Positions 8,270 to 25,915 of a stretch of DNA of 33,972 nt are shown here, in pieces. The position numbers and the translations under genes are program-made. Location: contig JAJDAH010000396.1 in the NCBI GenBank assembly GCA_029261965.1, positions 1 through 33,972 on the forward strand, written 5' to 3'. This DNA comes from Polyangiaceae bacterium. GTDB taxonomy: Bacteria; Myxococcota_A; Polyangia; Polyangiales; Polyangiaceae. How positions within the stretch are numbered: position 1 is the first letter of the stretch; every line of letters begins with the position of its first letter. The notes below the pieces were generated by a model. That model was not told the origin of the DNA. It searched no databases and saw only the letters and a program-made list of their open reading frames with translations.

Positions 8270-9234
8270 GTTGAGTTTTTTGGGCTTCTCCGGGGCTTCT
8301 TCCGAGCGGGCTTCTTCCGAGCGGGCTTCTTCGCGGCAGGCTTGCTCGCAGGAGGTTTCGTGCGGCGGGACCGGCAGGTCACCACCAAGGTGTCCGAGGT
8401 GTTGCTCGGTGGCCTGTCGGTGAAGTCGGCGGTGAAACGGATGTCGGTGAAGCCGTTGTAGTGGAGCAACGCCTCCATCTCCGCGGGGAAGAACTGCCGA
8501 TGGGTGAGCGGCACGCTCCACGCGTCGCCGCGGCCGGGCCGGAACTCCATTTGGATGAGCATGATCTGGCGCATCAAGTCGTACTCGAAGCGCTCGGCGT
8601 AGCGGGTGATCTGGCCTGTGGTGGGGTGGCGTATCGGCGGCGCGCCGTAGCTGCGGTCCGGGTCGAACACCAAGTCCTCGCCGTGCGGCACCGAAAAATC
8701 GAACACGAAGCGGCCCCGCGGGCTCAAGTGCTCGTGCACGCGTGCGAAGAACCTCTCGATGTCGCGGCGTTCGTAGAGGTGCAGGACCGTGTTGAACGTC
8801 GCGAGCACGAGGGGGAACTTTCGTCTCAGCCGGAGTGTGCGCATGTCGCCGCGCTTCCAAGAGATGCGGCGACGCACGGAGTCGGGAAGCGATTTTGCGC
8901 GTTTGGCGAGCGCGCCGAGCATTTCGGCGGAGAGATCGACGCCGACGACCTCGACGCCGGTTTCCGCCATGGGGACGAGAATGCGTCCGTTGCCAGCGCC
9001 GTACTCCAGGATCGGCCCGCGGGTTCGTTCAGCCAAGCGAGCGTAGTAGCCGACGTCGAGCTTTCTGCTCGCGTAGGTCTTCGTGTAGTAGGCCGCGTCC
9101 GCGTAGTGGGCTCGGGTCGCGACGTCTCCTGCGGCGCCGAGCTCGCCGAGCACGAGCGGTTCACCGAGCTGAGCTCGCCCGCCTTTGACGTTGGTCACTC
9201 CGTAGACGGGCCCTTCGCGCTTGCGTTTCGCCAC
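8266..9234 (-). CDS. Class I SAM-dependent methyltransferase with basic tail
   Basis: A protein of about 322 residues with a Rossmann-type methyltransferase domain: motif I ILEYGAGNGRIL, then VVGVDLS with the acidic ribose-binding residue, a WKRGDMRTL motif, and VLATFNTVLHLYE as motif IV. A strand-rich insertion (RYAERFEYDL, MEFRPG, LTHRQFFPAEMEALL) follows, as in the methyltransferase_25 type. The substrate is not known. The last about 30 residues are a Lys/Arg/Pro/Ala tail with repeated KKPAR units, coded by 15-bp repeats, resembling histone H1-like tails. The start is uncertain. I use the GTG at 9234, before a basic KRKREG segment. The frame is open to about 9378, but that extension would translate a 9-bp tandem repeat and overlap the divergent doxX-like gene. 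Confidence 0.85.
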   Translation of the reverse strand: MAKRKREGPVYGVTNVKGGRAQLGEPLVLGELGAAGDVATRAHYADAAYYTKTYASRKLDVGYYARLAERTRGPILEYGAGNGRILVPMAETGVEVVGVDLSAEMLGALAKRAKSLPDSVRRRISWKRGDMRTLRLRRKFPLVLATFNTVLHLYERRDIERFFARVHEHLSPRGRFVFDFSVPHGEDLVFDPDRSYGAPPIRHPTTGQITRYAERFEYDLMRQIMLIQMEFRPGRGDAWSVPLTHRQFFPAEMEALLHYNGFTDIRFTADFTDRPPSNTSDTLVVTCRSRRTKPPASKPAAKKPARKKPARKKPRRSPKNST

Positions 9235-9262
9235 GGCGAGACGAGATTGGCACGAGATCTGC

Positions 9263-9298
9263 GCCTGAATCGCCCGAATCGCCTGAATCGCCTGAATC
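9263..9298. repeat. Tandem repeat, 4 copies of 9 bp
   Basis: Four head-to-tail copies of GCCTGAATC at 9263, 9272, 9281 and 9290; the second copy has C for T at its fourth base. The array lies in the 112-bp gap between the divergent methyltransferase and DoxX genes, where promoters for both are expected. Because the period is nine, it keeps the reading frame and could also lie within an extended methyltransferase N-terminus (IQA/IRA repeats). Confidence 0.85.
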
Positions 9299-9346
9299 TT
9301 GGCTCCAACGCGAGGGAGCGAGAACAATGCGGGCGGAGGCTCCTCG

Positions 9347-9766
9347 ATGACCAGCTTACTCAAGAAGCTCAACGCCACTTCTCCCCTGAGCGCCGATCTC
9401 GGCTTGTTGATCGTGCGGCTGTGGTTCGGCGCCGTGCTCGCCGCATCCCATGGCTACGGCAAGGTCATGAACATCTCGGGCTTCAGCGAAAACGTCGCGA
9501 AGTTGGGCTTCCCTGTGCCCATTTTTTTCGGCTCCGCCGCCGCTCTGAGTGAGTTCTTGGGGGGAATTCTCGTCGCGGTCGGGTTCATGGCGCGACCCGC
9601 TGCCGGCGCAGTGCTGGGCACCATGTTCGTCGCCGCTTTTATCGTGCATGCCGACGATCCTTTCGGGAAGAAGGAGTTCGCGCTGTCCTACGCCGCGGCC
9701 GCGTTGGCCATCCTCGTCGCGGGCCCCGGCCGCTTCAGCATCGACGCACGAATGGGAAGGCGCTAA
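9347..9766 (+). CDS. DoxX family membrane protein
   Basis: A 139-residue inner-membrane protein with four predicted helices: LGLLIVRLWFGAVLAASHGYGK, IFFGSAAALSEFLGGILVAVGFM, AAGAVLGTMFVAAFIVHADD and ALSYAAAALAILVAGPGRFSID. The R-x-x-x-G-x(6)-HGxGK motif in helix 1 and the E-F-x-G-G motif in helix 2 are typical of the DoxX/DoxD family. That family includes quinone-linked and redox-stress membrane proteins; the function here is not established. The start is the ATG at 9347, preceded by GGAGG at 9335-9339 with a good seven-base gap. The next gene starts 20 bases downstream, so this is probably the first gene of a three-gene rightward operon with two radical SAM enzymes. Confidence 0.9.
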   Translation: MTSLLKKLNATSPLSADLGLLIVRLWFGAVLAASHGYGKVMNISGFSENVAKLGFPVPIFFGSAAALSEFLGGILVAVGFMARPAAGAVLGTMFVAAFIVHADDPFGKKEFALSYAAAALAILVAGPGRFSIDARMGRR

Positions 9767-9785
9767 CCCTCACTACCGAGAGCGC

Positions 9786-11159
9786 ATGGATTCGGCTTCC
9801 CACATCGGCGATCGCGGGCCGTTCAAGAAGACGAACCGGTCGGCATTCGAGAACTTTCTGCGCGCCAAGTACGAGATGTACACCGGCGCGGTTCGCGTCG
9901 CCTCCTATCCGTACTTCTTGACGCTCGAGGCGAGCGACGTCTGTCAGTTGCGTTGCCCGACCTGCGTCACCGGCATCGAAAACGAGGTCCGCCGAAAGAA
10001 GAGCGGGGCGCTGTTCGTTCTGCGCAGCAATCGAACGAAGCTCTCGACCGACCTCTACGACCGCCTGCTGAGCGAGATGGGGGACTATCTCTTCCTGTTG
10101 CTGTTCTACAACTTCGGCGAGCCGCTTCTGAACTCGCAGCTGCCGCGACTGGTCGCGCGGGCCCACGCCCTCGGCATCGAAACCGACATCAACACCAACC
10201 TCTCGCTGCGATTGAGCGACCAGTACATCGAGGACTTGCTCGCCTCCGGGGTCGACTACATCCAGGCGTCGATCGACGGGTTCACCCAAGGGAGCTACGA
10301 GACGCACCGGGTCGGTGGAAACATCGAGCTGGTGAAGGAGAACCTGGGCCGCCTCGTGGAGGCCCGCGACCGCATGGGGCTCGACACGAGCATTGGCTAC
10401 AACATGCTCGTGTTCAGCTTCAACGAGCACGAGGTCGACGACGCGCGTGTCTTCGCCGAAGAGCTCGGCATCAAGTTCAACACTCGCGACGCCTTCACCC
10501 ACAACCCGGACTGGCTGCCGAGCTACCGAAAAAACGAGCCCTCGAAGCCCGCGCCGGATCTCATCACCATGCCGCCAGAAATGAACGGCGTGCTCGTGAC
10601 GGGGGAAACGACGTATCGAGAGGGGGAGACGAACCAACAGTGGTCCCCGCTTCCGCCGGCCGATCCCGCTCAGCCGCCCCGCTGCTCGTGGCACTACGGC
10701 TACTCGGCGATATCCGCCGGCGGATCGGTCGCGCCGTGCTGCGGGCTGCCCACGGAGCAGCACGACTTCGGGAAGGTCGATTCGCGCGCGACCTTTGCCG
10801 ACGTCTGGAACAACGAGCTCTACCAAAAGTCGCGCGCCGACTTTGCCGGGCGACAGGCCGAAGTACCCGACCGCTCGCCCACGGTCTGCGGCAAATGCCC
10901 GCTGTCGCCGTTCATGTATCACCTGTACTCGCTGCATGACTTCAAGGTCATCGCGCAGTTCGACCGCGCCATCGGCGAAGCCGCGCCAGAGCTCGATCAC
11001 GCTTTCGATCTGCTCTGTCAGGCGCGCTACGGCATCCCGAAGAGCAACATCGTTCCGGAAGGCACCCGGTGGGCGCCAACGCAAATGCTCGAGCACCAAG
11101 ACGCCGAGCGAACTCGAGCCTTCGTCGACTTCTACGAGAAGAGCGTCCTGCCGGCGTAG
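9786..11159 (+). CDS. Radical SAM enzyme with SPASM-like C-terminus, copy 1
   Basis: A 457-residue radical SAM protein. The CxxxCxxC cluster motif is Cys53-Cys57-Cys60 (CQLRCPTC) and binds the 4Fe-4S cluster that cleaves SAM. FYNFGEPLLN takes the place of the usual GGEP motif. The C-terminal part has further Cys residues (CSWHYGYS, VAPCCG, VCGKC), consistent with one auxiliary Fe-S cluster of the SPASM/twitch kind. Before the cluster is a segment, AFENFLRAKYEMYTGA, that is almost identical in the next gene. No precursor peptide gene is visible nearby, so there is no evidence for a RiPP role; other uses of the family (cofactor, sugar or protein modification) are equally possible. The ATG at 9786 follows a CCGAGAG site. 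The stop is 12 bases before the next start. Confidence 0.9.
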   Translation: MDSASHIGDRGPFKKTNRSAFENFLRAKYEMYTGAVRVASYPYFLTLEASDVCQLRCPTCVTGIENEVRRKKSGALFVLRSNRTKLSTDLYDRLLSEMGDYLFLLLFYNFGEPLLNSQLPRLVARAHALGIETDINTNLSLRLSDQYIEDLLASGVDYIQASIDGFTQGSYETHRVGGNIELVKENLGRLVEARDRMGLDTSIGYNMLVFSFNEHEVDDARVFAEELGIKFNTRDAFTHNPDWLPSYRKNEPSKPAPDLITMPPEMNGVLVTGETTYREGETNQQWSPLPPADPAQPPRCSWHYGYSAISAGGSVAPCCGLPTEQHDFGKVDSRATFADVWNNELYQKSRADFAGRQAEVPDRSPTVCGKCPLSPFMYHLYSLHDFKVIAQFDRAIGEAAPELDHAFDLLCQARYGIPKSNIVPEGTRWAPTQMLEHQDAERTRAFVDFYEKSVLPA

Positions 11160-11171
11160 GTGAGCCCCCGC

Positions 11172-12482
11172 ATGTCGACTTCACCGTTCCGGAAACGCAA
11201 CCCCTCGGCCTTCTCGAATTTTTTGCGCGCCAAATACAACATGTACACCGGCGCCGCCCGCGTCGATTCGTATCCCTACTACCTGTGCGTGGACCCGTCG
11301 GACATCTGCCAGCTCCGTTGCCCGACCTGCCCCACCGGCGTCGAAAACGAGAGCCGACGCCAAAAGGAATCGCCGCTACAGGTCTACCGTGACGACCGAC
11401 AGAAAATGTCGCCCGCGCTCTTCGACGCGTTGCTCGACGAAGTCGGCGAGTACGTCTTCTTGATGATGCTCTACAACTTCGGCGAGCCGTTGTTGAACGC
11501 GCACCTGCCCAGCTTCATCCGAAAAGCATCCGATCTCGACATCGAAACCGAGGTTCACACCAACCTCTCGCTCAAAGTCTCCGACGAGCGCGTCGACCAA
11601 CTGCTCGACTCGGGGCTCGACCGACTCGAGGTGTCCGCCGACGGCTTCAGCCAAGGGGCCTACGAAGTCCACCGCGTTGGCGGCAACGTCGCGCTGGTGA
11701 AACAAAACCTCGAGCGGCTCGCCGCGGCCAAAGAGCGCCTCGGATCCGCGACGCGCATCACCTACAAGCTGCTCGTCTTTTCCCACAACGAGCACGAGGT
11801 CGACGCCGCAAGGGCGTATTGCGAACGCATCGGCATCGAGTTTTCGTCGCCCGACGGCATCGCCCGCGACGAAAGCTGGGTCCCCGCTCGCCGCCGCGGC
11901 GAGAAACCCGTCGATCCCAGGGCCGACCCCGAAGAGCTCGAACGAACGCTCGCCACGTGGGACCAGGCAGGCCGCAAGGACTACTTCCTCGAAGCCGATC
12001 TTCGACCGACGTGGGGTCTGCCGCCCCTCGGCTCGCCCTTCCCCGCGGCCTGCGGGTGGCACTACGGCTATTCCGTCATCACCGCGGGCGGATGCGTGAC
12101 GCCCTGCTGCGGCACGGCCAAGCAAGTCGACGACTTCGGCACCGTCAGCCCAGGCACCACCTCCTTCGCCGACGTCTGGAACGGCCCCTACTACCAAAAA
12201 GCCCGGGCCACCTTCGGTGGCCGGGCCCCAGCCGAGCTCCAAGGCGTCGATACTGTTTGCGAGCGCTGCTACTTCCCGAAGTTCTTGCAACACCTCTACT
12301 CGAGCCACGACCAACGCGTCGCGGATGCTTTCCGCCTCGCCCTCACCCAGCCCGGCTTCGCCGAGTCCGCCCCCGCTCTGGAGAATGCGTTCGCTCTTCT
12401 GCCCGCCAACTCACCCGAGGCCGACGTCGAGCCCTTCGTCGAGATCGTCCGCGCAAGCCTGAACCCCGCGGAAAAAGGCTGA
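11172..12482 (+). CDS. Radical SAM enzyme with SPASM-like C-terminus, copy 2
   Basis: A 436-residue paralogue of the preceding gene, collinear over the whole length. The cluster motif is Cys46-Cys50-Cys53 (CQLRCPTC), preceded by AFSNFLRAKYNMYTGA. It shares LYNFGEPLLN, the DGFSQGAYEVHRVGGN region and the C-terminal CGWHYGYS, VTPCCG and VCERC Cys groups. There is an extra Cys just upstream (YYLCVD) and in GGCVTPCC. The pair clearly arose by tandem duplication, but the two have diverged, which suggests different substrates or a heteromeric pair. The ATG at 11172 has a GGTGA site about eight bases upstream; a GTG at 11160, immediately after the previous stop, is the alternative start. The close spacing implies translational coupling. 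The substrate is not known. Confidence 0.9.
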   Translation: MSTSPFRKRNPSAFSNFLRAKYNMYTGAARVDSYPYYLCVDPSDICQLRCPTCPTGVENESRRQKESPLQVYRDDRQKMSPALFDALLDEVGEYVFLMMLYNFGEPLLNAHLPSFIRKASDLDIETEVHTNLSLKVSDERVDQLLDSGLDRLEVSADGFSQGAYEVHRVGGNVALVKQNLERLAAAKERLGSATRITYKLLVFSHNEHEVDAARAYCERIGIEFSSPDGIARDESWVPARRRGEKPVDPRADPEELERTLATWDQAGRKDYFLEADLRPTWGLPPLGSPFPAACGWHYGYSVITAGGCVTPCCGTAKQVDDFGTVSPGTTSFADVWNGPYYQKARATFGGRAPAELQGVDTVCERCYFPKFLQHLYSSHDQRVADAFRLALTQPGFAESAPALENAFALLPANSPEADVEPFVEIVRASLNPAEKG

Positions 12483-14645: not shown

Positions 14646-16217
14646 TCAGAACGGCGGATTGACGACGAGGCCGCCCTTTTTGGGTGCGGGTGCGGGCGGC
14701 GGCTCTTTTTCTGGCGCTGTGACGGCCGGCGGTGCCTTCGGATCGGGCTTCTTTTCCGGGGGTTTGGCTACGGGGCGCGCAGCGGGGCGCGGCGGCTTTT
14801 TTGCGACGGCGGCGGGCGCCTTCGCGGGTGGCGACTTTTGTGGCGCTCCGGCGTCCGGTGTTTGCTCCGCCGCCGGTGCCGCCGCTGGCGCCGCTGCTGG
14901 TGAGGGAGCAGCTGGTTTCGGCTCCGACTTGGTGTCGACTTCCGGCGGGGGCTCGACCGCCGCGGCCGGCGCCGAAGACTTTTCGGCTTCCGCGCTTGCC
15001 GTCGTCGCGTCGTTGAACCAAGTCCGCCAACCGATCGCCGCGAAGATGACGACGGCGATCGCCCCGACGGTGAGGTACGTGCGCCGGCGCCCCCCGCTGG
15101 TGTCGATGGTGACCGAGTGGGGGCCCGCGGTGTCGGGAGCACGCCTGGCACTCGGCGTCACCTGTCGCTCAGTTTCGTCGTGCGGACCGGCGTCATGGGG
15201 GCCGGCGTCGTGGCGGCCAGCGTCATTCGATGAAATGACGACTCGCTCGCCGTCCTCGGAACTGAACGACGCGGCTTTGGGCGCATCGAAATCCGGCGCC
15301 TCCACCTCGGTGAACGCTTGGAGCGCCGTCTTCACCTCCCGAAGGTCCGTCGGCCGGTCCTCGCGCTCGCGTTCGAGCATGCTCTTGGTGAGCGCCGCCA
15401 TGGCCTCCGGAATGCCGGGATCGAGCGCCTCGAGCGGCGTGATCGCGTCGTTCATCAATCGCTTCAGCACTTGGCCGAGCGAGTCACCCTCCACCGGGCG
15501 GCGACCGCTGAGCGCCTCGTACAGCATGACTCCGATCGCCCAGACGTCGGCGCGGTGGTCGATGTCTTTCTCGCCGAAACCCTGTTCTGGCGACATGTAA
15601 CAAGGCGTGCCGATGGTCGCCCCCGTCCCGGTGAGCGTGCCTTGGTCGTCCTCGCTCGCGAGCTTCGCGATGCCGAAGTCCAGCACCTTGACGAGCCGGT
15701 TGCCGTGCTTGTCCTTGGCGAGGAAAACGTTGTCCGGTTTGAGATCCCGGTGAACGACACCATGCGCATGCGCCGTGCCGACGGCGGAGACTACCGGAAG
15801 CATGAGTGCCGCCGTCTCTTCGACGGAGAGCGGACCCTCTCGCGCCAAAAACTGGCCCATGGTTTCCCCCTCCAGCAAGTCCATCACCATGACCGGCACG
15901 CCTTCTTCGGCGTCGAAGACATCGTGAACCCCGACCACGTTGGGGTGCTCCACAGCGGCGGCCGCGCGGGCCTCGCGCATGAATCGGCGGTGCGCGTCCG
16001 GGCGGATCTGCAGGTGCGCGCCCAGGAACTTCAGCGCGACCGAGCGACGGGTGACCGAGTGCGTCGCCGACCAGACGCTCCCCATTCCGCCCTCACCCAG
16101 GTGGCGATCCAACCGGTACCGCCCCGCGATGAGCGCTCCGGTTTCGAGTTGGAGACCCACTTCAGCGCGAACGATCGCACTCTTTCTACCGGTCACCAAG
16201 GAGACGGCGTCGACCAC
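14646..16217 (-). CDS. Hanks-type Ser/Thr protein kinase, membrane anchored
   Basis: A 523-residue transmembrane kinase. The kinase domain covers about 34-290 and looks active: Gly loop GEGGMGSVW (41-49), Lys63 in VALKFL, Glu82 of helix C, catalytic HRDLKPDN (156-163), DFG at 180-182 and an APE-equivalent SPEQ. A linker with repeated DAGPHDAG follows. One transmembrane helix (about 383-399, TVGAIAVVIFAAIGW) comes next, then a Pro/Ala/Lys-rich outside segment with no recognisable sensor domain. This architecture is common in myxobacteria. The GTG at 16217 is taken as start. It is only two bases beyond where the upstream AAA+ gene would end if its frameshift were repaired, so coupled expression is likely. 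An internal GTG near 16160 (AEVGLQLETG) is a possible alternative. Confidence 0.93.
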   Translation of the reverse strand: MVDAVSLVTGRKSAIVRAEVGLQLETGALIAGRYRLDRHLGEGGMGSVWSATHSVTRRSVALKFLGAHLQIRPDAHRRFMREARAAAAVEHPNVVGVHDVFDAEEGVPVMVMDLLEGETMGQFLAREGPLSVEETAALMLPVVSAVGTAHAHGVVHRDLKPDNVFLAKDKHGNRLVKVLDFGIAKLASEDDQGTLTGTGATIGTPCYMSPEQGFGEKDIDHRADVWAIGVMLYEALSGRRPVEGDSLGQVLKRLMNDAITPLEALDPGIPEAMAALTKSMLEREREDRPTDLREVKTALQAFTEVEAPDFDAPKAASFSSEDGERVVISSNDAGRHDAGPHDAGPHDETERQVTPSARRAPDTAGPHSVTIDTSGGRRRTYLTVGAIAVVIFAAIGWRTWFNDATTASAEAEKSSAPAAAVEPPPEVDTKSEPKPAAPSPAAAPAAAPAAEQTPDAGAPQKSPPAKAPAAVAKKPPRPAARPVAKPPEKKPDPKAPPAVTAPEKEPPPAPAPKKGGLVVNPPF

Positions 16218-17131
16218 GTCATTGCAACCCGTGCTCGCTGAGCTTTCCCGCCGAGAAATGCAGAAGAAATTCGAAGCAACCGCACCGCCCGACCTTCGTT
16301 GCCGCGCGCGTGCTCGAGCGTACGGACGAGGCCGCGCCTCTCGGCTGCCGCCAGCTCCGCGGAATCGGGCGCCCGCCGGTTGGCGAGCAGCCCCATCGCG
16401 TGCTCCGTCCGCGCCGTGATGTCTCGCCGAAACCGCGCCGCGCTCCGTAGCTCCCGCCGAACCACATCCACGTGCGACGGGACCTCTCGGTCCAGCAGCT
16501 CCTCTCCATCCAGCACCGCCGTTCTATCCAGCAGCGCCACGCGAGTCACGAAGTCACGAAGCTGCCGCACGTTGCCCGGCCAGGATTGTGCCTTCAGCTC
16601 CTCCATCGAGTCCTCGTCGAACTCGAACGGAGCAATGTCGTGCTCCGCGCAGATCTCCCGGGCAAACTGCCGAGCGAGCAGCGCCACGTCATCGCGACGC
16701 GTCCTCAGCGGCGGAAGCCAAATGACCGGCGACAGCGCCGCGAGAAGCGCCGCGAGGAACGCATCCCGTCGCACCGACTGCTCGATGTTCCGGTGACTCG
16801 TCGCGATCAACCGAAACGTCTGGCTCGACTTCGCCCGCTCGACCAGCCCGAGCACCTCCCGCTGCAGCCCCACCGTCGCCGCTCCGATCTCCTCGAGTAG
16901 CAGCGTGCTCCCCCACAACACACGAGCCGAAAGCGGCCCACTCGTCTCCCAAGAGCTCGCACAACACACCCGAACGAGCGGCCCCCCACCCCCGAGCTCG
17001 TGCACCAACCGCGCCGTCGTCGTCTTTCCCGCCCCATGCGGCTCCGTCACAACACACGGCCAGACCCCCGGACATGCGGCTCGCGTGCCGCCCGGCGTCT
17101 GGTGCCATCGTCGTTTCGCGTGCATGCGCAT
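16193..17131 (-). pseudogene. Degenerate, frameshifted sigma-54-activator-like AAA+ gene
   Basis: The 312-residue frame is clearly related to the AAA+ domain of NtrC-type enhancer-binding proteins. It has a P-loop region (EPHGAGKT, 30-37), a Walker-B-like LLLEE (77-81), an IATSHR sensor segment, LPPLRTRRDDV and WPGNVRQLRD. Key features are lost: the first P-loop Gly is Glu, the Walker B Asp is Glu, the GAFTGA loop that contacts sigma-54 is absent, and the usual Arg-finger stretch is replaced by LAALLAAL. The C-terminal Fis-type helix-turn-helix runs RISSAFLGGK and then leaves frame. Dropping one A from the AAA codon at that Lys gives GGKLSEHGLQ and a stop at 16219-16221, a normal family ending. 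There is no N-terminal FHA or sensor domain, although the frame stays open back to about 17252 without a normal start codon. It may be non-functional, or a DNA-binding protein that no longer activates transcription. Confidence 0.75.
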
Positions 17132-17254
17132 GAACGCCGTATCGCGCGCAAGTTCCCCATGGGCTCTGCGCCGCGCATACCCAAAACCAAAAGCCGTCCG
17201 TGAATTCAGGCTGGGTGGGCGCAGGGCCAGGCAGCCGTGAGGAAACTTCGTCGT

Positions 17255-18217
17255 CTACCTAGGGCACCGCGTCGAGGGATCTCTCTCCGCGCAGACGAGG
17301 TGCATGTTGCAGTTGTTCGCCAGATCGCAGCTCGCGCCTGGTCGGCTGCAGGGATCGCCCTCTCTTTCGTGACCACACGGGGGAACACCCGGCACGGGGC
17401 CGCGATAGCTCTGGCAGACGGCGTCGCCACAGGTCTTGAAGAATTTGAAGCGAGAGGACACGCGCGGTTTCGGGGGCGGCGGCGGCTTGTTGCGCAGCTT
17501 GATGCGGGAGCGCGGTGGACCTGTGAGCCCGAAGCACTCGAGCGCTTGGACCACGCGCTGGTTGATGGTGCTCGCCCCCAGGCTCGATGGGTTCATGACG
17601 CCGTGTCCGCTTTTCGAGAGCACGAACTTCAGGTCCTGCGCCTGCGCCGCGGTGATGGCGCGGTCGACGACTTTGGCCGCGATGTAGGCGTCGACGTGAC
17701 GGAAGTCCACGCGGAATCGGTCGACGCGTATCCGCCGCTGCTCGAGCTCCTTCCGGGGGTTTCGCACGGGTCGGTCGCGGCAGGTGAGCCGGTCGAGGTG
17801 GCGACGGGCTTGCTGGAGGCGGTTGCGAACGGGGGTCATCACTCGCAGCGCCTCGGGGGTGTCGTTTCGGCCGTAGCGTGCGACGACTTGTCGATTTTTT
17901 TCGTTGAGGAGCTTCGACAAGGTTCCGATCTCGGCTTCGGTCTGCGCGTAGGCTTGCCGCAAGCTCACGCCGCCTCCGGGCTCGGGAAACGGAGTCTCGG
18001 ACACGGGCGCTTCGGCAACGGGTGGCTCGGCGGGGGCAGGCGCGGCGGGCGGCGGGGGTGCAAAGCGCGATTGTGGGGGCGCTTGCGGTGACGGGGGCGC
18101 TTGCGGTGACGGGGGCGGCGGCGCTTCGGGGGGTGGCGTGGCGTTGTCGCCACAAGAGGCGAGCACCGAGCTCAGCGAGAGCACGAGCACCAGCCGCGCG
18201 CCAAAACGTCCCTCCAT
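17255..18217 (-). CDS. Pro-rich lipoprotein with Cys-rich C-terminus, unknown function
   Basis: A 320-residue predicted lipoprotein not assigned to a known family. The signal MEGRFGARLVLVLSLSSVLASC has a clear lipobox (LASC, Cys22). Residues 25-80 are a Pro/Ala linker with tandem SPQAPP units coded by an 18-bp repeat near 18075-18117. The middle (about 85-210) is basic and helical and contains two positions rich in Arg. The C-terminal 55 residues hold eight or more Cys (TCGDAVCQSY, PCGHEREGDPC, SCDLANNCNMHLVC), similar in style to EGF-like or Dickkopf-type disulfide knots found in secreted myxobacterial proteins. The end of the gene lies just upstream of the AAA+ remnant on the same strand. 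No function can be assigned. Confidence 0.78.
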   Translation of the reverse strand: MEGRFGARLVLVLSLSSVLASCGDNATPPPEAPPPPSPQAPPSPQAPPQSRFAPPPPAAPAPAEPPVAEAPVSETPFPEPGGGVSLRQAYAQTEAEIGTLSKLLNEKNRQVVARYGRNDTPEALRVMTPVRNRLQQARRHLDRLTCRDRPVRNPRKELEQRRIRVDRFRVDFRHVDAYIAAKVVDRAITAAQAQDLKFVLSKSGHGVMNPSSLGASTINQRVVQALECFGLTGPPRSRIKLRNKPPPPPKPRVSSRFKFFKTCGDAVCQSYRGPVPGVPPCGHEREGDPCSRPGASCDLANNCNMHLVCAERDPSTRCPR

Positions 18218-18389: not shown

Positions 18390-21300
18390 TTAGCTGTTGT
18401 CCACTCGGCGCAATCCAAACACGAAAAGGACGAACGCGGCCCCGGCCAACCCTGGCCAACTCCACTGTCCCCGCCCTGCGGCTCGGCACGCGCAACCGCG
18501 CGCTCCCGGCTCCACCGGGGCAGGGGCACCAGCCGGCGTCGCGCGCGGCGCTGGGCTCACGTACTTTCCGTCGAGAGTCGTCGCGTTGCCGGACACGATG
18601 AAGCTCGCCCAGTAGTAGGGGTGCTTCGTTTTCGCCTCGGCGCGAAGCTCACGGCGGACTTCGCGCATGGCGTTGCTGCGTCCACCGCCTTTGGCGAGTC
18701 GTTGGTAGTAGCGCGTCATGAGCTCGGTGGTGGCGGCGTCATCGACTTTCCAGAGACTCAGCACTTGGGTCTCTGCGCCGGCAACCGCGAAGGCGCGGCG
18801 GAGTCCGTGTACGCCGTCCCCGTTCTTGACTTCACCAACTCCCGTCTCGCACGCGGAGAGCACGACCAGCCGAGTGCCACTCAAGTCGAGCGCCGCCGCT
18901 TCGAGCGCCGTCAGGACGCCGGCGGCGTCACCGGTGCGGATCTTGTTGGCGCCCGCGAACGCCAGACCCGACCGAAGGAGCGGGTTTTCTATTTTTGGGG
19001 CGTCTTCGAGAGCGAGTCCGCGACTCCCGCTGACCGCCGCGTTCTGATCTTCGAGAAAGAACCCGTGAGTGGCGATGTGAAGCACGCTCGGTGACGCCGC
19101 AGCTTGCAGCGCGGCTTTGCTTGCACCGTCTCCCGATAGCAGCACGGCGTCCGGGTAGATGGCTTTGAGTGCCTTTGCTTCGGAGTCGGTTCCAGGCAGT
19201 GGAGAAAAGTTGATGTTCGCGAACTTTCCTCCGCCGGCGCTCTCGAGGGCGGGCCCGAAGCTCGGATTGGCGACGAACAGGGGTGGCGTTGGTGACGAGC
19301 CTCCGGCCTTGCGCAAGAGCTCGCGGCCACTGCCGAGGTAGGTGAAAAGAAAGCTCTCGACGAGCGGGGTCGACTTCTCGTCGAGCAGCGCATCGAGCGG
19401 TACGAGGTTCAGCAGTCCGTCGGGCGAAACGTAAACGTCGACCGCGCCGCGGGCCCCTGGAGAAGCTCCGAGCTTGTCGCGGATCGGGCGCATGACCATC
19501 TGGTCGAGCTCTCGAGCGGGTGCTTCGTACTTGCCGCCTGGAGACGCGAGCGCGGCGCGGAGGCGAGGCACGACCGCGTCGATGGCCGCGGCTTGGCCGA
19601 GAGCAACCACGGCGGTGGGGGCGTCTTTCTGGATCACGAAAGCGGCGTAGTGGGGCGCGCCCCAGCGCTGCTTTTCCGTCTTCGCGGCGGGGGCGAGTGG
19701 TCGGTACACGACGAGCTCGAGCAATGCGCTCCCCGCGGGCAACGCCTCTCGAACGGCATCGAGGTTGAACGCGGCTGCGCCGACCGACGCGGTGCTCGTG
19801 CGACCGAGCTCGGCTTCGATGTCGGCCACCTGTTTCTCGAGCTTCTGAACGCGCTCTTGGCGCGCCGCGTACGCTTCGTCGGTCGAGCTCTGGAACACCG
19901 CCCGGGCGAGCTTGGTTCGTGCACGAACCAGCGTGTCCCAACTCTTCTGAGAGCTTCCCCGGTTCTTTCGTGCGGCTAGAGATTGTGCGGCCACGGCGTC
20001 GAGCACTCGGCCCTTGCGTCGGAGCACGGCGGTGGCTCCGAGATCGGCGGCCGCAGCGTTGCCCGGATTTGCGACCGAATACGAAATCGCCGCGGCGCTG
20101 CCTCGCCAGAGGGAGCTCAAGTAGCGCAGCTTCTGCTCGTCGCTGCCGAGGCCGAGGCTCGACGTGACGACTCGTTCGTACACCGCGTCCGCTTTCTTCA
20201 GATACTCGAGCGCGAGGGCGTCATCGCCTTTGCTCATCGCGATGTCGGCGCCGAGGTTGATGGCGCGGGAATAGTCGATGTGATTCGGGCCGAGGGCTCG
20301 CTTTCTCGTTTCGGCGGCCTGCTTGGCGAAGTCGAGCGCCTTTTCGTAGTCGCCCTTGCCACGAAAAGATGCGGCCATGTTGAAGAGCAGAGTGGCGACT
20401 CGCGGGTGGTCTTTGCCATAGACGCGCTCGAGCACTGCGCGGGCGGCTTGCTGCTCCGCTATCGCTTCGCGCCAACGGCCTGTCGCGGTGTAAGCGACCG
20501 CGAGATTCTGTCGAGCCGTCGCCAGCTCTGGATGATTTTTTCCTCGGTTCTTGCGGGTGATCAGGTTCGCGGCGTAGTAGGCGCGCAGGGCGAACGCGTA
20601 GTCCTCTTTTTTGTAAGCAACCTGCCCTAGACGAGTCACATCGTGTGCGATCGTCGGGTGCGTGCGCCCCAAGTTCTCGACGTCGACTTCGAGCGCGCGG
20701 GTCGCGTAGCTCTCGGCTCGGTCGTAGTCGCCCCGCTCGCGAAAGTAGTCGCTCATCTCCGTCAAGCTGCCGGCCAGGTCCATCAGCTCGGTCGAGTTGA
20801 CCGGAGGGCCCGTCGGCTTCGGAATCAGGGGCTTCGGCTTCGGTTGCTGTTTCGAGCGCGACTTCTTTCCGTCCCCGGGGACGGCGCCCGCACCGCTATC
20901 TCCGCCGAGAGCTTTCAACAGCTCGCGATCGAGACGCGCTAGCTCCTGAGTCAGCATCGAGCGACCAGCCGATGGCATTCCGATTACGGATCGAGGCCCG
21001 CGGAGGCGCGTCTCGGCGAGACGTGCTTGCGCTTCGCGCCGCCGAAGCCGCTTTTCCTCGGCCTCCTTCGCCTCGCGAGCCTTGATTCGGATCTGCTGCA
21101 TGCGCTGCTTCGCGCTGGTCAGCGCCGCGTCGAGATCGCCAGCCACCTTGGCTATCTCGGCGTCCGCCGAGCGTTGTCTACCGCTGTCGGCTTGCACGAG
21201 CGCGAGCCCCGTTCGGATCCGAAGCTCGGTGCCTTTGTCCCGATCGGGGAGACGCGCGTTCAACTCGAGGGCGCGACGCAGATCCGCCTCTCCTTTACGA

Positions 21301-21836
21301 ACGAAGCCCGCCCGCGCGCGTGTCGTACCGAGTCGAACGAGCGCGTCGACCAGCTCGTCTTTCGGCGCACCCCGTTCGAGCAACTCGACGAGCTGCGCGA
21401 AGTAGCCCATAGCCACGTGAAGATCGCCTCGCTCGAACGCCACCGCACCCACGCCCTCGAGCGCACGCGCTTTCATGGCGGCGGTGCTACCCGGCATGTG
21501 GGCAAGCACGAGGGCTCGTCTGTAGTGCTTCTGCGCCGCGTCCAGCCTGCCTGACAACATGTTCGCCCAGGCCAGCAGGATTACGCTGCTGGCGAGACGA
21601 GCATCACGCTTGCCGAGCTGTTCCTCCGCGAAGCGAACCAGCGACGCCGACGCACGGATCGCCGAGTCCTTGTCGCCCCTCTCGAGGAGCATCCGCGCGG
21701 CCTTGCTCCGCTTGCGAACGAGCTCGTGACGCTGCGCCGCTTCCGGTTTCGCGTCGGCTTCTGGTTTTGCGCCGGTTGGCGTTGCCAGAACCATGAACGC
21801 AACGGTCCAGATTGTTGCTCGACGACGAAGGTTCAC
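18390..21836 (-). CDS. Secreted TPR-CHAT (caspase-like) protein with MYXO-CTERM-type tail
   Basis: A 1148-residue protein. The GTG at 21836 starts a classical signal peptide (NLRRRATIWTVAFMVLATPTGA, split here by position: residues 2-23). Residues about 30-240 and 350-580 are TPR-like helical repeats (for example YDRAESYATRALEV, ALRAYYAANL, YEKALDFAKQAAE); between them is a charged coiled region and a Lys/Pro linker. A second coiled segment covers about 650-700. The CHAT domain covers about 800-1085, with the catalytic dyad His924 in HIATHGFF and Cys996 in LSACETGVG, followed by RAFAVAGA and LWKVDDAAT. CHAT proteins are caspase-clan cysteine proteases. The last about 35 residues have GCACRAAG, then a hydrophobic helix and RR, matching the MYXO-CTERM surface-sorting pattern. 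So it is probably exported and displayed on the cell surface, with proteolysis predicted from the intact dyad. The frame extends to 21998 but that part is not convincing. Confidence 0.9.
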   Translation of the reverse strand: MNLRRRATIWTVAFMVLATPTGAKPEADAKPEAAQRHELVRKRSKAARMLLERGDKDSAIRASASLVRFAEEQLGKRDARLASSVILLAWANMLSGRLDAAQKHYRRALVLAHMPGSTAAMKARALEGVGAVAFERGDLHVAMGYFAQLVELLERGAPKDELVDALVRLGTTRARAGFVRKGEADLRRALELNARLPDRDKGTELRIRTGLALVQADSGRQRSADAEIAKVAGDLDAALTSAKQRMQQIRIKAREAKEAEEKRLRRREAQARLAETRLRGPRSVIGMPSAGRSMLTQELARLDRELLKALGGDSGAGAVPGDGKKSRSKQQPKPKPLIPKPTGPPVNSTELMDLAGSLTEMSDYFRERGDYDRAESYATRALEVDVENLGRTHPTIAHDVTRLGQVAYKKEDYAFALRAYYAANLITRKNRGKNHPELATARQNLAVAYTATGRWREAIAEQQAARAVLERVYGKDHPRVATLLFNMAASFRGKGDYEKALDFAKQAAETRKRALGPNHIDYSRAINLGADIAMSKGDDALALEYLKKADAVYERVVTSSLGLGSDEQKLRYLSSLWRGSAAAISYSVANPGNAAAADLGATAVLRRKGRVLDAVAAQSLAARKNRGSSQKSWDTLVRARTKLARAVFQSSTDEAYAARQERVQKLEKQVADIEAELGRTSTASVGAAAFNLDAVREALPAGSALLELVVYRPLAPAAKTEKQRWGAPHYAAFVIQKDAPTAVVALGQAAAIDAVVPRLRAALASPGGKYEAPARELDQMVMRPIRDKLGASPGARGAVDVYVSPDGLLNLVPLDALLDEKSTPLVESFLFTYLGSGRELLRKAGGSSPTPPLFVANPSFGPALESAGGGKFANINFSPLPGTDSEAKALKAIYPDAVLLSGDGASKAALQAAASPSVLHIATHGFFLEDQNAAVSGSRGLALEDAPKIENPLLRSGLAFAGANKIRTGDAAGVLTALEAAALDLSGTRLVVLSACETGVGEVKNGDGVHGLRRAFAVAGAETQVLSLWKVDDAATTELMTRYYQRLAKGGGRSNAMREVRRELRAEAKTKHPYYWASFIVSGNATTLDGKYVSPAPRATPAGAPAPVEPGARGCACRAAGRGQWSWPGLAGAAFVLFVFGLRRVDNS

Positions 21837-21990
21837 AATCTGGCTCGGTGGAGGCAGAGAAGACCAAGGTGGGCGGGCGAAGTCAAAGCGCCCAACCGGT
21901 GTGCTGCGCCACCTGCTCCTCCTCGGCCGTAGCAATGCGCCGGAGCCAACGACGGCGAGCACATCTTGCCGTGCTAAGATCGATCCAGAC

Positions 21991-22564
21991 GTGCCCACCC
22001 CAGCTCACAAGATCAACTACACCTTCGCGGACTACCTCGCGCTCGAGGGGTCCAGCAACGTCAAGCACGAGTACCTGGACGGGCAAATACGGGATGGCGG
22101 GCGGCACACCCGAGCACACCGCACTTGCGGCCGCGGTGGTGGGCATCCTGTTCGGGCAGCTGCGTGGCGGACGCTGTCGGGCACACGATGCGGACCTCCG
22201 GGTGCGCGTGCTCGCTACCGGCTTGGCGACATACCCCGACGTGACGGTGGTGTGCGGGCCGCGCGAGCGTGATCCCCACGACGAGAACGCCGTGACCAAC
22301 CCCATGGTGATCGTCGAGGTACTGAGTCGGAGCACCGAAGAGTACGATCGGGGCGACAAGTTCGAGCACTACAAGCAGGTGCCCTCGCTCCGACAGTACG
22401 TTCTGGTGGCACAAAGCGAGCGGGCGATCGAGGTCTGGACACGCGATGGGAGCGAATGGACGCGGGCCGTCTGTCGCGAAGGCGATGCGGCCAACCTCGA
22501 ATCGATCGAGGCGCGAATCGACGGGCGCGAGCTCTACGAAGCGGCAGACGAACCGCGAGCCTGA
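21991..22564 (+). pseudogene. Uma2 family nuclease-like gene with a frameshift
   Basis: The gene encodes a Uma2/DUF820-type protein of the PD-(D/E)xK nuclease superfamily, but in two frames. From the GTG at 21991 the first frame reads PTPAHKINYTFADYLALEG to KHEYLDGQI. At about 22084-22090 the reading must move by +1 to continue with YGMAGGTPEHTALAAAVV, YPDVTVVCG, VIVEVLSRSTEEYDRGDKF and LRQYVLVAQS, ending at 22564. In intact family members DGxIY(A/G)MAGG is continuous, so two bases are missing or one is extra here. The nuclease residues (PD of YPDVTVV and the Glu of VEVL) are kept. It is divergent from the CHAT gene with 154 bases between the starts. It may be a real pseudogene or an assembly error. 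Confidence 0.8.
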
Positions 22565-22701
22565 AGCGCCTCGAGTCGGACAACTGGCTCATGCTCGGCG
22601 TTCATCGCGACGACGCGAAGGTTCGCGCCGAACCTTTCGACGCGTTCGAGCTCGACCTGGCGATCTTGTGGGCGGATACCTCGCCGCTGGACGAGCCGTA
22701 G
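22565..22701 (+). pseudogene. Possible C-terminal remnant of a second Uma2-like protein
   Basis: Directly after the Uma2 stop, another frame reads LKRLESDNWLMLGVHRDD and then AKVRAEPFDAFELDLAILW, ending at 22701 (TAG at 22699-22701). The segment RAEPFDAFELDLAILW resembles the last strands of many Uma2 proteins (x-x-PFDAVELDLxxLW). It has no start codon of its own in a good context. It is either a leftover of an adjacent duplicated gene or an alternative end of the same gene after a second frameshift. Assignment is by resemblance only. Confidence 0.4.
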
Positions 22702-22724
22702 CCTTAGGGGATCTTGGAGGCTCA

Positions 22725-24038
22725 CTAACCCGGTGGGTCCTCGGTGAGCTCCACCCGGGTCGGCGGCTCCTGCAGGCTCGCGAACCCCAGACCTAGCTCC
22801 CCGAACCGGTTCGAGCCCCAGCAATAGAGCGCACCGTCCCGGTCGACGGCACACGCATGCCCTAGGCCCATCGAGAACGAGGCGATGTTCTTCAGTCCCG
22901 CGATCTTCTTGGGGCGCGGTGTGGGCTCGGTCCCGAGTCCGACCTGCCCCCAGCAGTGGATGTGTCCGGTCTTCGAGAGGGCGCAGCTCTCGGAGTGCCC
23001 GGCGCCGACCTGGATGGCGTCGTCGATGCCGTGGACGCGTACCGGGCCGCCCTTGTCGACGGCCTTGCCGTTGCCGAGCTGCATGCGCTTGCCTTCGCCC
23101 CAACAGTAGACGCTGCCACCCGGAACCAGCGCGCAGCCGTGGTTGCTGCCGACGTCGATCTGCGTGGCATTGGCGATGCCGCGCACGGGCGTGAGGCCGT
23201 ACTTCGAGAAGCCTTCCCACATCTTGCGGGCGCCGTCGTCGCTGAGCTCGAGCTTGGCGCCGACGCTCTTTGCGTCACCCGGGCCGAGCTCGATGGTCGG
23301 CAAGTCACCAATGACGCTGTTGCCGACGATCCCCCAGCACGCAATGACGCCGGGTCCGTCGAGCGCGCACGTGTAGAGCGTCGCGCTCGCCACCTGCCTG
23401 ACCGACGTGAGGCCGTCGATCGCCGCGGGCTCCTTCTGCACGAGGTTCCGCAGACCACCGAGCACGTAGTTGCTGCCGTTGCCCCAGCCGAGCACCTTTC
23501 CTTCTTTGGTGACCGCGAAGAACGTCGCCGCGCCGCCCTCAATCTGCAGAGCTCCGGGAACGGACGGGCCCTCTTGCGGCTCCCAGAAGGTCGCCGACTT
23601 GTGGTTACCCGTCATGCCCTCGCGCCGGGCGACGACGAGGGTGCCCCAGGTGAAGAGCTTGCCGTCGGTGGTGAGCGCAACACTCGTCGCTCCGCCCACC
23701 GCTACCTGCTCGACCGAACGAAGCTTCTCGACCCACACGGGCGCGGGCTCGATTCCGAGGTGGGCGTACGGCACACCGTTACCGATTTGCCCGTCGCCTG
23801 CGGCGCCCCAACACGCCAGGCGCTTCTTGCTCGTGATCGCGCAAGTCCCACCCCCGCCGGCCGCTACCTTTTCGATTCGGACGGTGCTCTTCGCCGCGGC
23901 TGGTCCCTCCGGCGCGGCGTCGTCTGCCCGCGCGGCGTGCTCCGGTGGCGCGCTCGGTGCGCAGGACATCACCGCGACCGCAGGTATCACCGCAACCGCA
24001 CGCATCACCGCAACCGCAGGGAGGGGCAGCCGGCTCAT
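22725..24038 (-). CDS. RCC1-like repeat lipoprotein
   Basis: A 437-residue predicted lipoprotein with a beta-propeller of RCC1/alpha-tubulin-suppressor repeats: GGGGTCAITSKKRLACWGAA, GGATSVALTTDGKLFTWG, AATFFAVTKEGKVLGWG, ATLYTCALDGPGVIACWG, SNHGCALVPGGSVYCWGEG, HSESCALSKTGHIHCWG and GHACAVDRDGALYCWGSN. Each ends with W-G and a GQIGNG or GELGLG-type turn. The signal peptide is unusual: its core AVAVMRAVAVIPAVAVMSC comes from an 18-bp triplication. Cys26 is the likely lipid site. The ATG at 24038 overlaps the TGA of the upstream gene (ATGA), so the two are translationally coupled. The ligand is unknown. Compare with the similar but more diverged protein at 12487-13806. Confidence 0.88.
   Translation of the reverse strand: MSRLPLPAVAVMRAVAVIPAVAVMSCAPSAPPEHAARADDAAPEGPAAAKSTVRIEKVAAGGGGTCAITSKKRLACWGAAGDGQIGNGVPYAHLGIEPAPVWVEKLRSVEQVAVGGATSVALTTDGKLFTWGTLVVARREGMTGNHKSATFWEPQEGPSVPGALQIEGGAATFFAVTKEGKVLGWGNGSNYVLGGLRNLVQKEPAAIDGLTSVRQVASATLYTCALDGPGVIACWGIVGNSVIGDLPTIELGPGDAKSVGAKLELSDDGARKMWEGFSKYGLTPVRGIANATQIDVGSNHGCALVPGGSVYCWGEGKRMQLGNGKAVDKGGPVRVHGIDDAIQVGAGHSESCALSKTGHIHCWGQVGLGTEPTPRPKKIAGLKNIASFSMGLGHACAVDRDGALYCWGSNRFGELGLGFASLQEPPTRVELTEDPPG
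23968..24021. repeat. 18-bp triplication inside a signal-peptide coding region
   Basis: Three tandem 18-bp copies beginning with ATCACCGC at 23968, 23986 and 24004. On the minus strand they code for PAVAVM, RAVAVI and PAVAVM, which together form the hydrophobic core of the signal peptide of the RCC1-like lipoprotein. The copies differ at only a few positions, so the expansion is relatively recent. Confidence 0.85.
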
Positions 24039-25915
24039 CTTTTCGCGAGCCCCTTCAGTCGTTCGACCGTCTTGTTGCCCAGCAGCGTCACCAGATCCGC
24101 CGTCGTGCCGGACCACGTATCGTCCAGAATCAGACACGTGGCGTTGTTGTGGTCGCAGGCCTTCCGGAGCTCTTCGAGGTTCTGCTTTCGAGCCTGGACG
24201 AGCGTTGGCTCGAAGAGCGTCGAGGTCGTCGGCTTTGGTCGATAGGCGGCGCAAAAACGGGCGGACTCGATGTAGACCGCCACGCGAGGTCCGACCTTGC
24301 GTTGATCGTACGGGGCCATCTCGGGATAGAACACCTCCTCGTCGTCCAACTGGATGTACGCCTTGGGGAACAACTCGCGGGTGGCTTTCAGGGTGCGAGC
24401 CAGCCCGAGGGTTTCGTCCATGAGCTCTCGCAGCACCGCGTTCTCTTCGGGCGTCGCCTGGTGTCCGTGGCTTCCAGCAGCGAGCGCAATGGTCGCGAGC
24501 GCGTGCGCGAAGTCCTCGCGCCCTTCGAGCTTGGCGCTCACCCGCAGAGCGTCGAGATACCGGCGGCCGACGAGCAACGGATCGATCACCGCCTCTTTCA
24601 ACCACCGGAGATCGGGCTCGCGCATGCGGTGGAGCGCGACGGCTCGGTCCGCTTCTCCGAGCAGTGCCCACAATCCAGGCGCGTCCCTCGTCGCGGAATC
24701 TCGCCGCGGGCGCTCCTTCAGCGCCACGTCGAGTCGTTCCAAGTAGCTTCGCGCGTGAGCGGCGCATCCCGAAAAGAAAGCTTCGCTCGCCATCTCGCGA
24801 AGACCCCGGACGCGGTCGAAAGATCCGCCCGAGGCCTCCATCCGGTCGAGCGCCACGTCGCCGACCGCGCTCGAGCCCGTCTTGCACGCAATCAGCGCGG
24901 CCGGTCCCAGTCGGTCGTCGCCTTGAATGGTGCCGACGTACGCTCGTGCCGCGTCCTTTCCATTGACCGCGAGCAGCGCCGTCGTGAGCGAGCTTCTGAG
25001 CCGGCTGGTCTGAAACCGCCCTTTGGCTTTCTCTTCCGCGAGCGCGAGCACGCGTTGGGCCAGCTTTGCTTTCTTCTCGGTGGCGGCGGCTTCGGCGATC
25101 TGTGCCAAGTCGGTCGCGTCCGTACCCAGACCCGGAACGACGACCTGGCCCCCGTCGTCCTGCCCTGCGTCACCGAGCCCTGTGTTCCCGAACACCGCGT
25201 CACCCAACACCGCCGCCGCCACCAATTCTCGCCCGATGACCAGGCGGCTTCTCCCCGTGTGACCGCTCAGCCCGTTGACCGCCTCGAGCAGATCGATGGC
25301 CTGCTGGCGCTTGCCCTCTTGGAACAGCTGTCGCGCTTGTCGGACGGCCTCTCGCGCTCGTTCGTCCAACGGCTGCCCGTTGGGCGGCACGTGGCGATTC
25401 AAGACGCTCGAGTGGTCGGCCATGCCCTCGGTGCGTACGAGCTCCGATTCGAGCAGTCTTCGCCTCGCGTCGACCATGTCCTTTTCCGCTCGAAGGACCT
25501 CGTGTGCGCGCAACACCATTTTCCTGATGGCGTCGGCGTCGCCGCGGTCGACGAATCCCGTGGCAGCCGCGATGAGATCCATGACGTCCGTCTCTCCCTC
25601 CGGAGACAGTTCGATTTCTTCGAGTCGACCGGCAGCGGCGTACGCGCGAACGAGCTGAAGATGGGGCTTGCCTCCGAACCTGTCGCCCACGGCGACTGCG
25701 GCGCGGGCGCAGTCCAAAAAGTCGCCCTTTTCGCAGGGGGATAGGGGGCGCGTCGACGTCGCGACGGGTGCCGCGGTCGCGTTCGAGGTTGTGCCCGGTC
25801 CGCCCGCCTGCTCGGGAGCCGCAGCTGCCGGTGGTCGCGCGCAGCCCAGTGCCAAAGCGAGCAAGCTCGTGGTCGACAGCAGCCAGCCGACGGACGTGCG
25901 CTGCGGTTTCGTCAC
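24035..25915 (-). CDS. Large helical lipoprotein of unknown function
   Basis: A 626-residue predicted lipoprotein. The signal WLLSTTSLLALALGC ends with lipobox LALGC (about Cys25), followed by an Ala/Thr/Pro linker to about residue 58. The rest is mostly alpha-helical with many Ala, Leu, Arg and Glu residues, and resembles degenerate TPR/Sel1-like helical repeats (for example AREAVRQARQLFQEGKRQQAIDLLE; ARSYLERLDVALKE), but no standard domain is recognised. A Gly/Asp-rich insertion (about 240-260) interrupts it. The C-terminus has Cys residues near RFCAAYRP, RKACDHNNATCLIL. The start is the GTG at 25915. It is the first gene of a two-gene operon with the RCC1-like lipoprotein, coupled by the ATGA overlap at 24035-24038. 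A scaffold role in the periplasm is a guess. Confidence 0.78.
   Translation of the reverse strand: MTKPQRTSVGWLLSTTSLLALALGCARPPAAAAPEQAGGPGTTSNATAAPVATSTRPLSPCEKGDFLDCARAAVAVGDRFGGKPHLQLVRAYAAAGRLEEIELSPEGETDVMDLIAAATGFVDRGDADAIRKMVLRAHEVLRAEKDMVDARRRLLESELVRTEGMADHSSVLNRHVPPNGQPLDERAREAVRQARQLFQEGKRQQAIDLLEAVNGLSGHTGRSRLVIGRELVAAAVLGDAVFGNTGLGDAGQDDGGQVVVPGLGTDATDLAQIAEAAATEKKAKLAQRVLALAEEKAKGRFQTSRLRSSLTTALLAVNGKDAARAYVGTIQGDDRLGPAALIACKTGSSAVGDVALDRMEASGGSFDRVRGLREMASEAFFSGCAAHARSYLERLDVALKERPRRDSATRDAPGLWALLGEADRAVALHRMREPDLRWLKEAVIDPLLVGRRYLDALRVSAKLEGREDFAHALATIALAAGSHGHQATPEENAVLRELMDETLGLARTLKATRELFPKAYIQLDDEEVFYPEMAPYDQRKVGPRVAVYIESARFCAAYRPKPTTSTLFEPTLVQARKQNLEELRKACDHNNATCLILDDTWSGTTADLVTLLGNKTVERLKGLAKR

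Follow-up and report, generated by a model that had tools for sequence, protein, structure and literature searches.

Known systems and the locus

What is known of CHAT proteases comes mainly from CRISPR and other systems that operate inside the cell. Csx29 acts in the cell together with Cas7-11, and separase, a eukaryotic protease, is also intracellular. The available portions of three papers (PMC10907252, PMC7159879, PMC11854122) deal with CHAT or caspase-like proteins of conflict or type VI systems, and no MYXO-CTERM sorting signal is described for any of them. For proteins that do carry that signal, the myxosortase model, as set out in an excerpt of PMC11980579, runs from Sec export through lipid attachment at the invariant cysteine and MrtX cleavage to the type II secretion system (T2SS). 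The locus considered here lies in a stretch of 33,972 nucleotides from a Polyangiaceae bacterium of the Myxococcota (contig JAJDAH010000396.1; "the window" throughout) and codes for a TPR-CHAT protein with a predicted signal peptide at one end and a MYXO-CTERM-like tail at the other. It is reasonably likely that this protein is a site-specific cysteine endopeptidase of the CHAT/separase type that works outside the cytoplasm, being exported and then sorted to the surface by its tail. If that is true, an exported and mostly cysteine-stripped branch of the family, held by a variety of anchors, would mean that caspase- or separase-like cutting also takes place at the bacterial surface, and the locus offers a specific gene for this, along with a prediction of where its product cuts and a sorting route. 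A literature search, with subscription journals mostly outside its coverage, found no account of a CHAT protease that is exported or bears a MYXO-CTERM.

The protease and its fold

An earlier reading of the letters alone (the original prediction) had placed an exported CHAT protein at 18390-21836 without giving a strand. The coordinates are correct and the gene is on the minus strand, which is open for 1148 residues, while the plus strand of the same interval is interrupted by stops. Its features are as follows.

18390..21836, minus strand: TPR-CHAT protein of 1148 amino acids, a reading frame from GTG at 21836 to the stop at 18390
21768..21836, minus strand: predicted signal peptide, residues 1-23 (VNLRRRATIWTVAFMVLATPTGA), from the sequence by a home-made rule with control
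21021..21743, minus strand: first helical/TPR block, residues 32-272, from the AlphaFold2 model and TPR matches
20154..20792, minus strand: second TPR block, kinesin-light-chain-like, residues 349-561, from TPR matches and the AlphaFold2 model
18585..19523, minus strand: CHAT protease domain, residues 772-1084 (Pfam PF12770)
19065..19067, minus strand: catalytic His924, from the alignment (130/131 CHAT domains)
18849..18851, minus strand: catalytic Cys996, the only cysteine upstream of the tail, from the alignment and the cysteine count
18738..18740, minus strand: Asp1033, putative S1-pocket acid at a separase-like position, conserved in the alignment
18393..18497, minus strand: MYXO-CTERM-like tail, residues 1114-1148 (GCAC, hydrophobic helix, RR), from profile scores and shuffles

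The domain content is solid, and the combination of CHAT and TPR first read from the letters was borne out by the Pfam profiles: PF12770 matches residues 772-1084 at 251.8 bits (cut-off 24) and TPR_12 matches seven stretches at 118.5 bits. The His924/Cys996 dyad had been called intact, and both residues are indeed where they were said to be, each kept in 130 of the 131 aligned CHAT domains. Asp1033 is kept in 125 of them, at what we take to be the position of an equivalent aspartate in separase and so presumably in the S1 pocket, and it is because of this residue that a cut after Arg or Lys is predicted.

The AlphaFold2 model of the protein has a mean predicted local distance difference test score (pLDDT) of 80.8 and a predicted template modelling score of 0.79, with pLDDT below 50 at residues 1-28 and 1113-1148 and also at 932-945 and 998-1007 near the active site. 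Compared by VIA-align with chain B of 8eey, which we take to be Csx29, it gives Z 24.7 over 605 residues (8.1 A, 12% identity), the alignment beginning in the TPRs and extending across the CHAT domain; with separase (9hn4) it gives Z 19.5 over 768 residues at a root mean square deviation of 15.1 A, and here too the alignment continues through CHAT. Plain TPR proteins, however, reach Z values up to 24.9, level with Csx29, while covering the repeats only, so that Z alone is weak proof; in the predicted structure it is the continuation of the alignment through the CHAT domain that sets Csx29 and separase apart. By sequence, the CHAT profile reaches the CRISPR TPR-CHAT proteins at an E value of only 0.04.

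Export and cysteine content

The N-terminus, NLRRRA-TIWTVAFMVLA-TPTGA, resembles a Sec signal peptide and passes a home-made rule asking for a basic start, a ten-residue hydrophobic core and either a lipobox or small residues at the cleavage site. As controls, 30 of 4504 internal start codons pass this rule, and a passing start is contained in 17 of 388 internal 200-residue blocks; the signal peptide of the original prediction was upheld to this extent. Relatives were taken from the best 80 of 572 confirmed stretches, supplemented with 15 regions of the same genome and of near relatives and with the best-scoring 40 of 124 class-wide CHAT matches not yet included (two of these yielded no row); because the best-scoring stretches were sampled, the set represents the nearer kin of the window protein and not all CHAT proteins. 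Phyla were assigned by hand with help of the tree. A signal-like start was found in 89 of the 117 full-length proteins, from Cyanobacteria, Acidobacteriota, Myxococcota and a few others with the window protein included: 31/37 cyanobacterial, 17/20 acidobacterial and 2/5 other proteins and, leaving the window protein apart, 11/13 and 27/41 in two myxococcal subsets. Since many relatives look exported, export is not peculiar to the window gene. The original prediction had set its exported protein against CHAT proteases acting inside the cell, a contrast that is real but was drawn too sharply, most of the cyanobacterial and acidobacterial relatives appearing to be exported and DdvA, a transmembrane anti-sigma factor of Myxococcus xanthus, having been deposited as CHAT domain-containing.

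The cysteine content points in the same direction. There are three cysteines in all, Cys996 and two in the tail, and hence only one in the first 1112 residues. Counted from 300 residues ahead of the CHAT domain to its end, the median for myxococcal rows is 1 in those with a tail (n=11, window included), 1 in those with a signal and no tail (n=29) and 4 in those with neither (n=15). Exported and non-exported myxococcal rows differ with a Mann-Whitney p=0.0002, a value that serves as a guide only because the rows are related. The loss of all non-catalytic cysteines fits an oxidising compartment, as expected for a place of work outside the cytoplasm.

Against this it must be set that the signal call rests on a home-made rule and not on SignalP, that 28 of the 117 proteins fail that rule, among them 16 of the 54 myxococcal rows besides the window, and that 6 of the 89 passing relatives have no cut site. 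The non-myxococcal rows without a detected signal (12 rows) also have a median of 1 cysteine, and there is no obvious ribosome-binding site 5' of the GTG at 21836. Taken together, the case for predicted export of the TPR-CHAT protein is good.

The C-terminal tail and the sorting machinery

The tail has the tripartite layout of GARGCACRAAG, a hydrophobic helix and RR, the helix (1132-1146) falling in a low-confidence stretch of the AlphaFold2 model. When the final 58 residues are shuffled, 16 of 100,000 versions pass a rule describing this layout; 18 of 3326 stop-ended frames pass it as well (overlapping loci being counted repeatedly), 17 of these 18 being copies of eight CHAT genes. When scored with a profile built from 24 tails of the same genome the window tail reaches 12.7 bits, a value exceeded by two of 1457 non-CHAT frames, of which one is probably the GCGC...RRRRR frame adjoining the CHAT gene of another locus (L055). 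Tails of six near relatives gave 23.2, 18.3, 16.1, none, 28.4 and 22.6 bits with the curated model TIGR03901, so that five match, three of them above the cut-off, and one does not match. A GCxC tail is carried by 13 of the 55 myxococcal CHAT rows, counting the window, and by none of 71 rows of other phyla, although two triplets of close orthologues account for six of the 13. On whether the tail arose once or several times, a quick tree requires seven changes, and the starred branches alone force one.

The same genome encodes machinery for such a tail: an MrtC-type myxosortase scores 281 bits (cut-off 195), and GspD, the type II secretin and the T2SS part that was searched for, scores 469.6 bits (cut-off 351.35). 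At least 65 MYXO-CTERM frames lie above the cut-off among the 150 of 231 candidates that were scored, a hand count of marked rows in which three reach the cut-off only with in-frame neighbours; the window CHAT gene is absent from the rows listed. Across the class, a myxosortase match at E<=1e-15 is found in 137/142 genomes and a CHAT match at E<=1e-20 in 56/142.

Several results for the tail weigh against sorting to the surface. TIGR03901 matches the isolated tail at 15.3 bits (E=0.02) and misses the curated NCBI cut-off of 20, no match to the whole protein is listed up to E=10, and the tail has two arginines only, followed by VDNS. By the curated test the window protein is not a formal MYXO-CTERM member, and of the MYXO-CTERM pattern originally claimed what stands is a GCAC/helix/RR tail present above chance. 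In addition, by rule a C-terminal anchor is lacking in 31 of the 55 myxococcal rows; homologues lacking the tail, which had been named beforehand as counting against surface sorting where they are also cytoplasmic, are common, alongside the 13 with GCxC. The remaining rows have one single-cysteine form, four plain helices followed by arginines without a cysteine motif, and six extensions. Further single-cysteine MYXO-CTERM-like tails, judged by eye, were seen in L157, L158 and L166 of genome G083, and a second CHAT gene of the window's own genome (L056, contig C271), its N-terminus cut by the contig end, has no tail.

The six extensions (L110, L120, L143, L144, L045 and L046) are 209-230 residues long and apparently beta-rich. 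No Pfam family was found in the four of the six that were scanned, and a model of one was all-beta at pLDDT 43, for which reasons "beta-rich" is to be taken as a description only; an outer-membrane barrel was considered for the extension of the L110/L120 type and rejected on the same two grounds. Some myxococcal CHAT relatives have N-terminal lipoboxes. Since several types of anchor occur on one protease, envelope attachment seems to matter.

The weak match to the MYXO-CTERM model, together with the four plain-helix rows, may be read as pointing to an active exported protein whose C-terminal helix stays uncleaved and keeps it in the inner membrane or the periplasm, where it would guard envelope proteins and not face other cells. 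A plain anchor needs no cysteine motif, however, and here GCAC and MrtC are both present, which makes retention a rather unlikely outcome, if one to be taken seriously. The missed cut-off might equally be taken, along with the homologues that have neither signal nor tail, to mean that this is a plain cytoplasmic CHAT protease whose two ends are chance readings, but both ends and the cysteine count agree and relatives have the same ends, so that a cytoplasmic protein is very improbable. Judged from the sequence, anchoring of the window protein in the envelope by its tail is likely, and its display on the outer surface is probable.

Such a surface-sorted protease would be exported by Sec through its N-terminal signal peptide, for which there is sequence evidence. 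Following the model of PMC11980579, in so far as the excerpt covers it, the C-terminal helix would then hold the protein in the inner membrane until the GCAC cysteine has received its lipid and the helix has been cut off by MrtC, and the T2SS would carry the product to the outer surface with the lipid as anchor. There the TPR solenoid may bind a partner or peptide and gate the CHAT domain, as the fold suggests by analogy with Csx29, leading to cleavage of one or a few proteins. The protein is most likely, on its predicted features, a TPR-gated and envelope-anchored site-specific cysteine endopeptidase, and it would more probably make a regulatory cut in a protein of the envelope or of a neighbouring cell than digest prey wholesale.

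Gene neighbourhood and a possible signalling role

The genes on either side of the CHAT gene are as follows.

17255-18217, minus strand: proline-rich lipoprotein, downstream of the CHAT gene
within 14646-18217, minus strand: sigma-54 activator AAA domain, two genes downstream
14646-16217, minus strand: Ser/Thr kinase, three genes downstream
21812-25915, Uma2 divergent: Uma2 family gene, then RCC1-repeat protein, predicted lipoprotein without Pfam family, upstream of the CHAT gene

The absence of an adjacent defence partner had been claimed and holds in that Pfam scans of 19 window proteins revealed neither a CRISPR protein nor any other recognised CHAT partner; less simply, the kinase at 14646-16217 matches the PADLOC models for the kinase defence gene PD-T4-6 over its length, at 301.7 bits. 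It was taken as generic because at least 150 kinase-domain matches occur in the genome (150 of 211 candidates scored). With PADLOC, applied to nine window proteins, the CHAT protein gave a weak TPR match and other matches fell on the sigma-54 activator, Uma2 and a mad2-like protein; a defence role on the strength of these was rejected as generic.

Neighbours were compared all against all in a set of 16 loci, mainly myxococcal, and in one of 96 loci. No conserved partner gene clearly recurs in Myxococcota among the 16, a point against the proposed sorted protease; what does recur is Ser/Thr kinases, taken as background on account of the same 150 matches. One pairwise match links the window with L046 through a sulfatase-modifying-factor domain and another joins two proteins from a single genome (L044, L055); as candidate partners they were set aside, each being confined to few loci. 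The downstream lipoprotein fares no better: its matches in 11 of 38 other genomes are weak, short and partial, and none of those listed lies on a contig carrying a sampled CHAT gene. In eight loci (L062, L080, L081, L082, L085, L101, L103 and L124; seven acidobacterial and one from a Chthoniobacterales metagenome-assembled genome) two genes lie directly upstream of an exported-looking TPR-CHAT gene, one for a protein of ~210 amino acids and the next for a protein with a zf-HC2 match below the cut-off. Elsewhere in the window, on the plus strand at 8461-12482, an open reading frame without a Pfam family (8461-9552) is followed by adjacent radical SAM/SPASM proteins (9549-11159 and 11160-12482), which together might form a peptide-maturation cassette.

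The shared array and the sigma-54 activator bear on another explanation, namely that the exported TPR-CHAT protein is a signalling regulator that senses envelope stress and, by cutting an anti-sigma-like partner, acts on an extracytoplasmic function (ECF) sigma or sigma-54 pathway, in the manner of DdvA or of Csx29-Csx30-CASP-sigma. A Foldseek search with the model matches the transmembrane anti-sigma factor DdvA (E 1.2e-11), which was deposited as a CHAT domain-containing protein; CHAT proteins occur in the gene context of ECF54 sigma factors (PMC8999054, in the portion available); and Csx29 cuts Csx30 and thereby relieves inhibition of an ECF-like sigma, according to an excerpt of PMC10028731. 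A sigma-54 activator related to that of the window (30% identity over 222 residues) is also found downstream of the L050 CHAT gene on the same strand. The shared pair of the eight loci, which by eye suggests sigma and anti-sigma and was kept as a lead, is not identified as such by Pfam, however. The window gene has no such pair next to it, its sigma-54 activator may be one of many in the genome, and a surface tail is a poor fit to an inner-membrane signalling partner. While CHAT cutting is tied to gene control in known systems, and by analogy such a tie is possible for the window gene, the signalling regulator as a whole is improbable.

Comparison with known systems

On the widest view, surface TPR-CHAT proteases of Myxococcota, Cyanobacteria and Acidobacteriota would make up a so far unrecognised extracellular branch of the separase/caspase-like machinery, fitted with lineage-specific anchors (MYXO-CTERM, lipobox or beta-rich domain) and making regulated cuts on their own or a neighbour's surface proteins as a proteolytic cell-to-cell signal; this is a speculative proposal and more doubtful than surface sorting of the window protein itself. 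DdvA, the M. xanthus transmembrane anti-sigma factor (8rot, 8rw5), shows by its deposit that a myxococcal membrane protein with a CHAT domain is already known. The CHAT sequence profile matches only the last part of DdvA, at E=0.17, and therefore no active dyad can be inferred for it. Anti-sigma factors of this type have an N-terminal cytoplasmic anti-sigma domain followed by a membrane helix; the window protein, unlike DdvA, has no anti-sigma domain by Pfam and a predicted signal peptide in its place. DdvA is the cognate anti-sigma of DdvS, and its signal is unknown according to the part of PMC4374960 available. Among the CHAT proteins of the Bacteroides fragilis secretome one is predicted to be transmembrane, and their authors propose type VI immunity; MYXO-CTERM does not appear in the available part of that account (PMC11854122).

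Csx29 of the type III-E Craspase has, like the window protein, a TPR solenoid and then CHAT, but the CRISPR TPR-CHAT sequences compared have Ser where the window protein has Asp1033, and no Cas family, and so neither cas7-11 nor csx30, was found among the 19 Pfam-scanned window proteins (not every open reading frame was scanned). Separase likewise places a clan CD protease behind a helical repeat solenoid. Surface proteins of the TraA type in M. xanthus have a signal peptide, Cys motif, helix and arginines as in the window protein, although TraA is a receptor and not a CHAT protease, and the window tail, by contrast, scores under the curated cut-off. The gingipains and clostripain are secreted clan CD cysteine proteases of the caspase fold that are active outside the cell, from which the window protein differs in that they are non-CHAT proteins without TPR that use other export routes.

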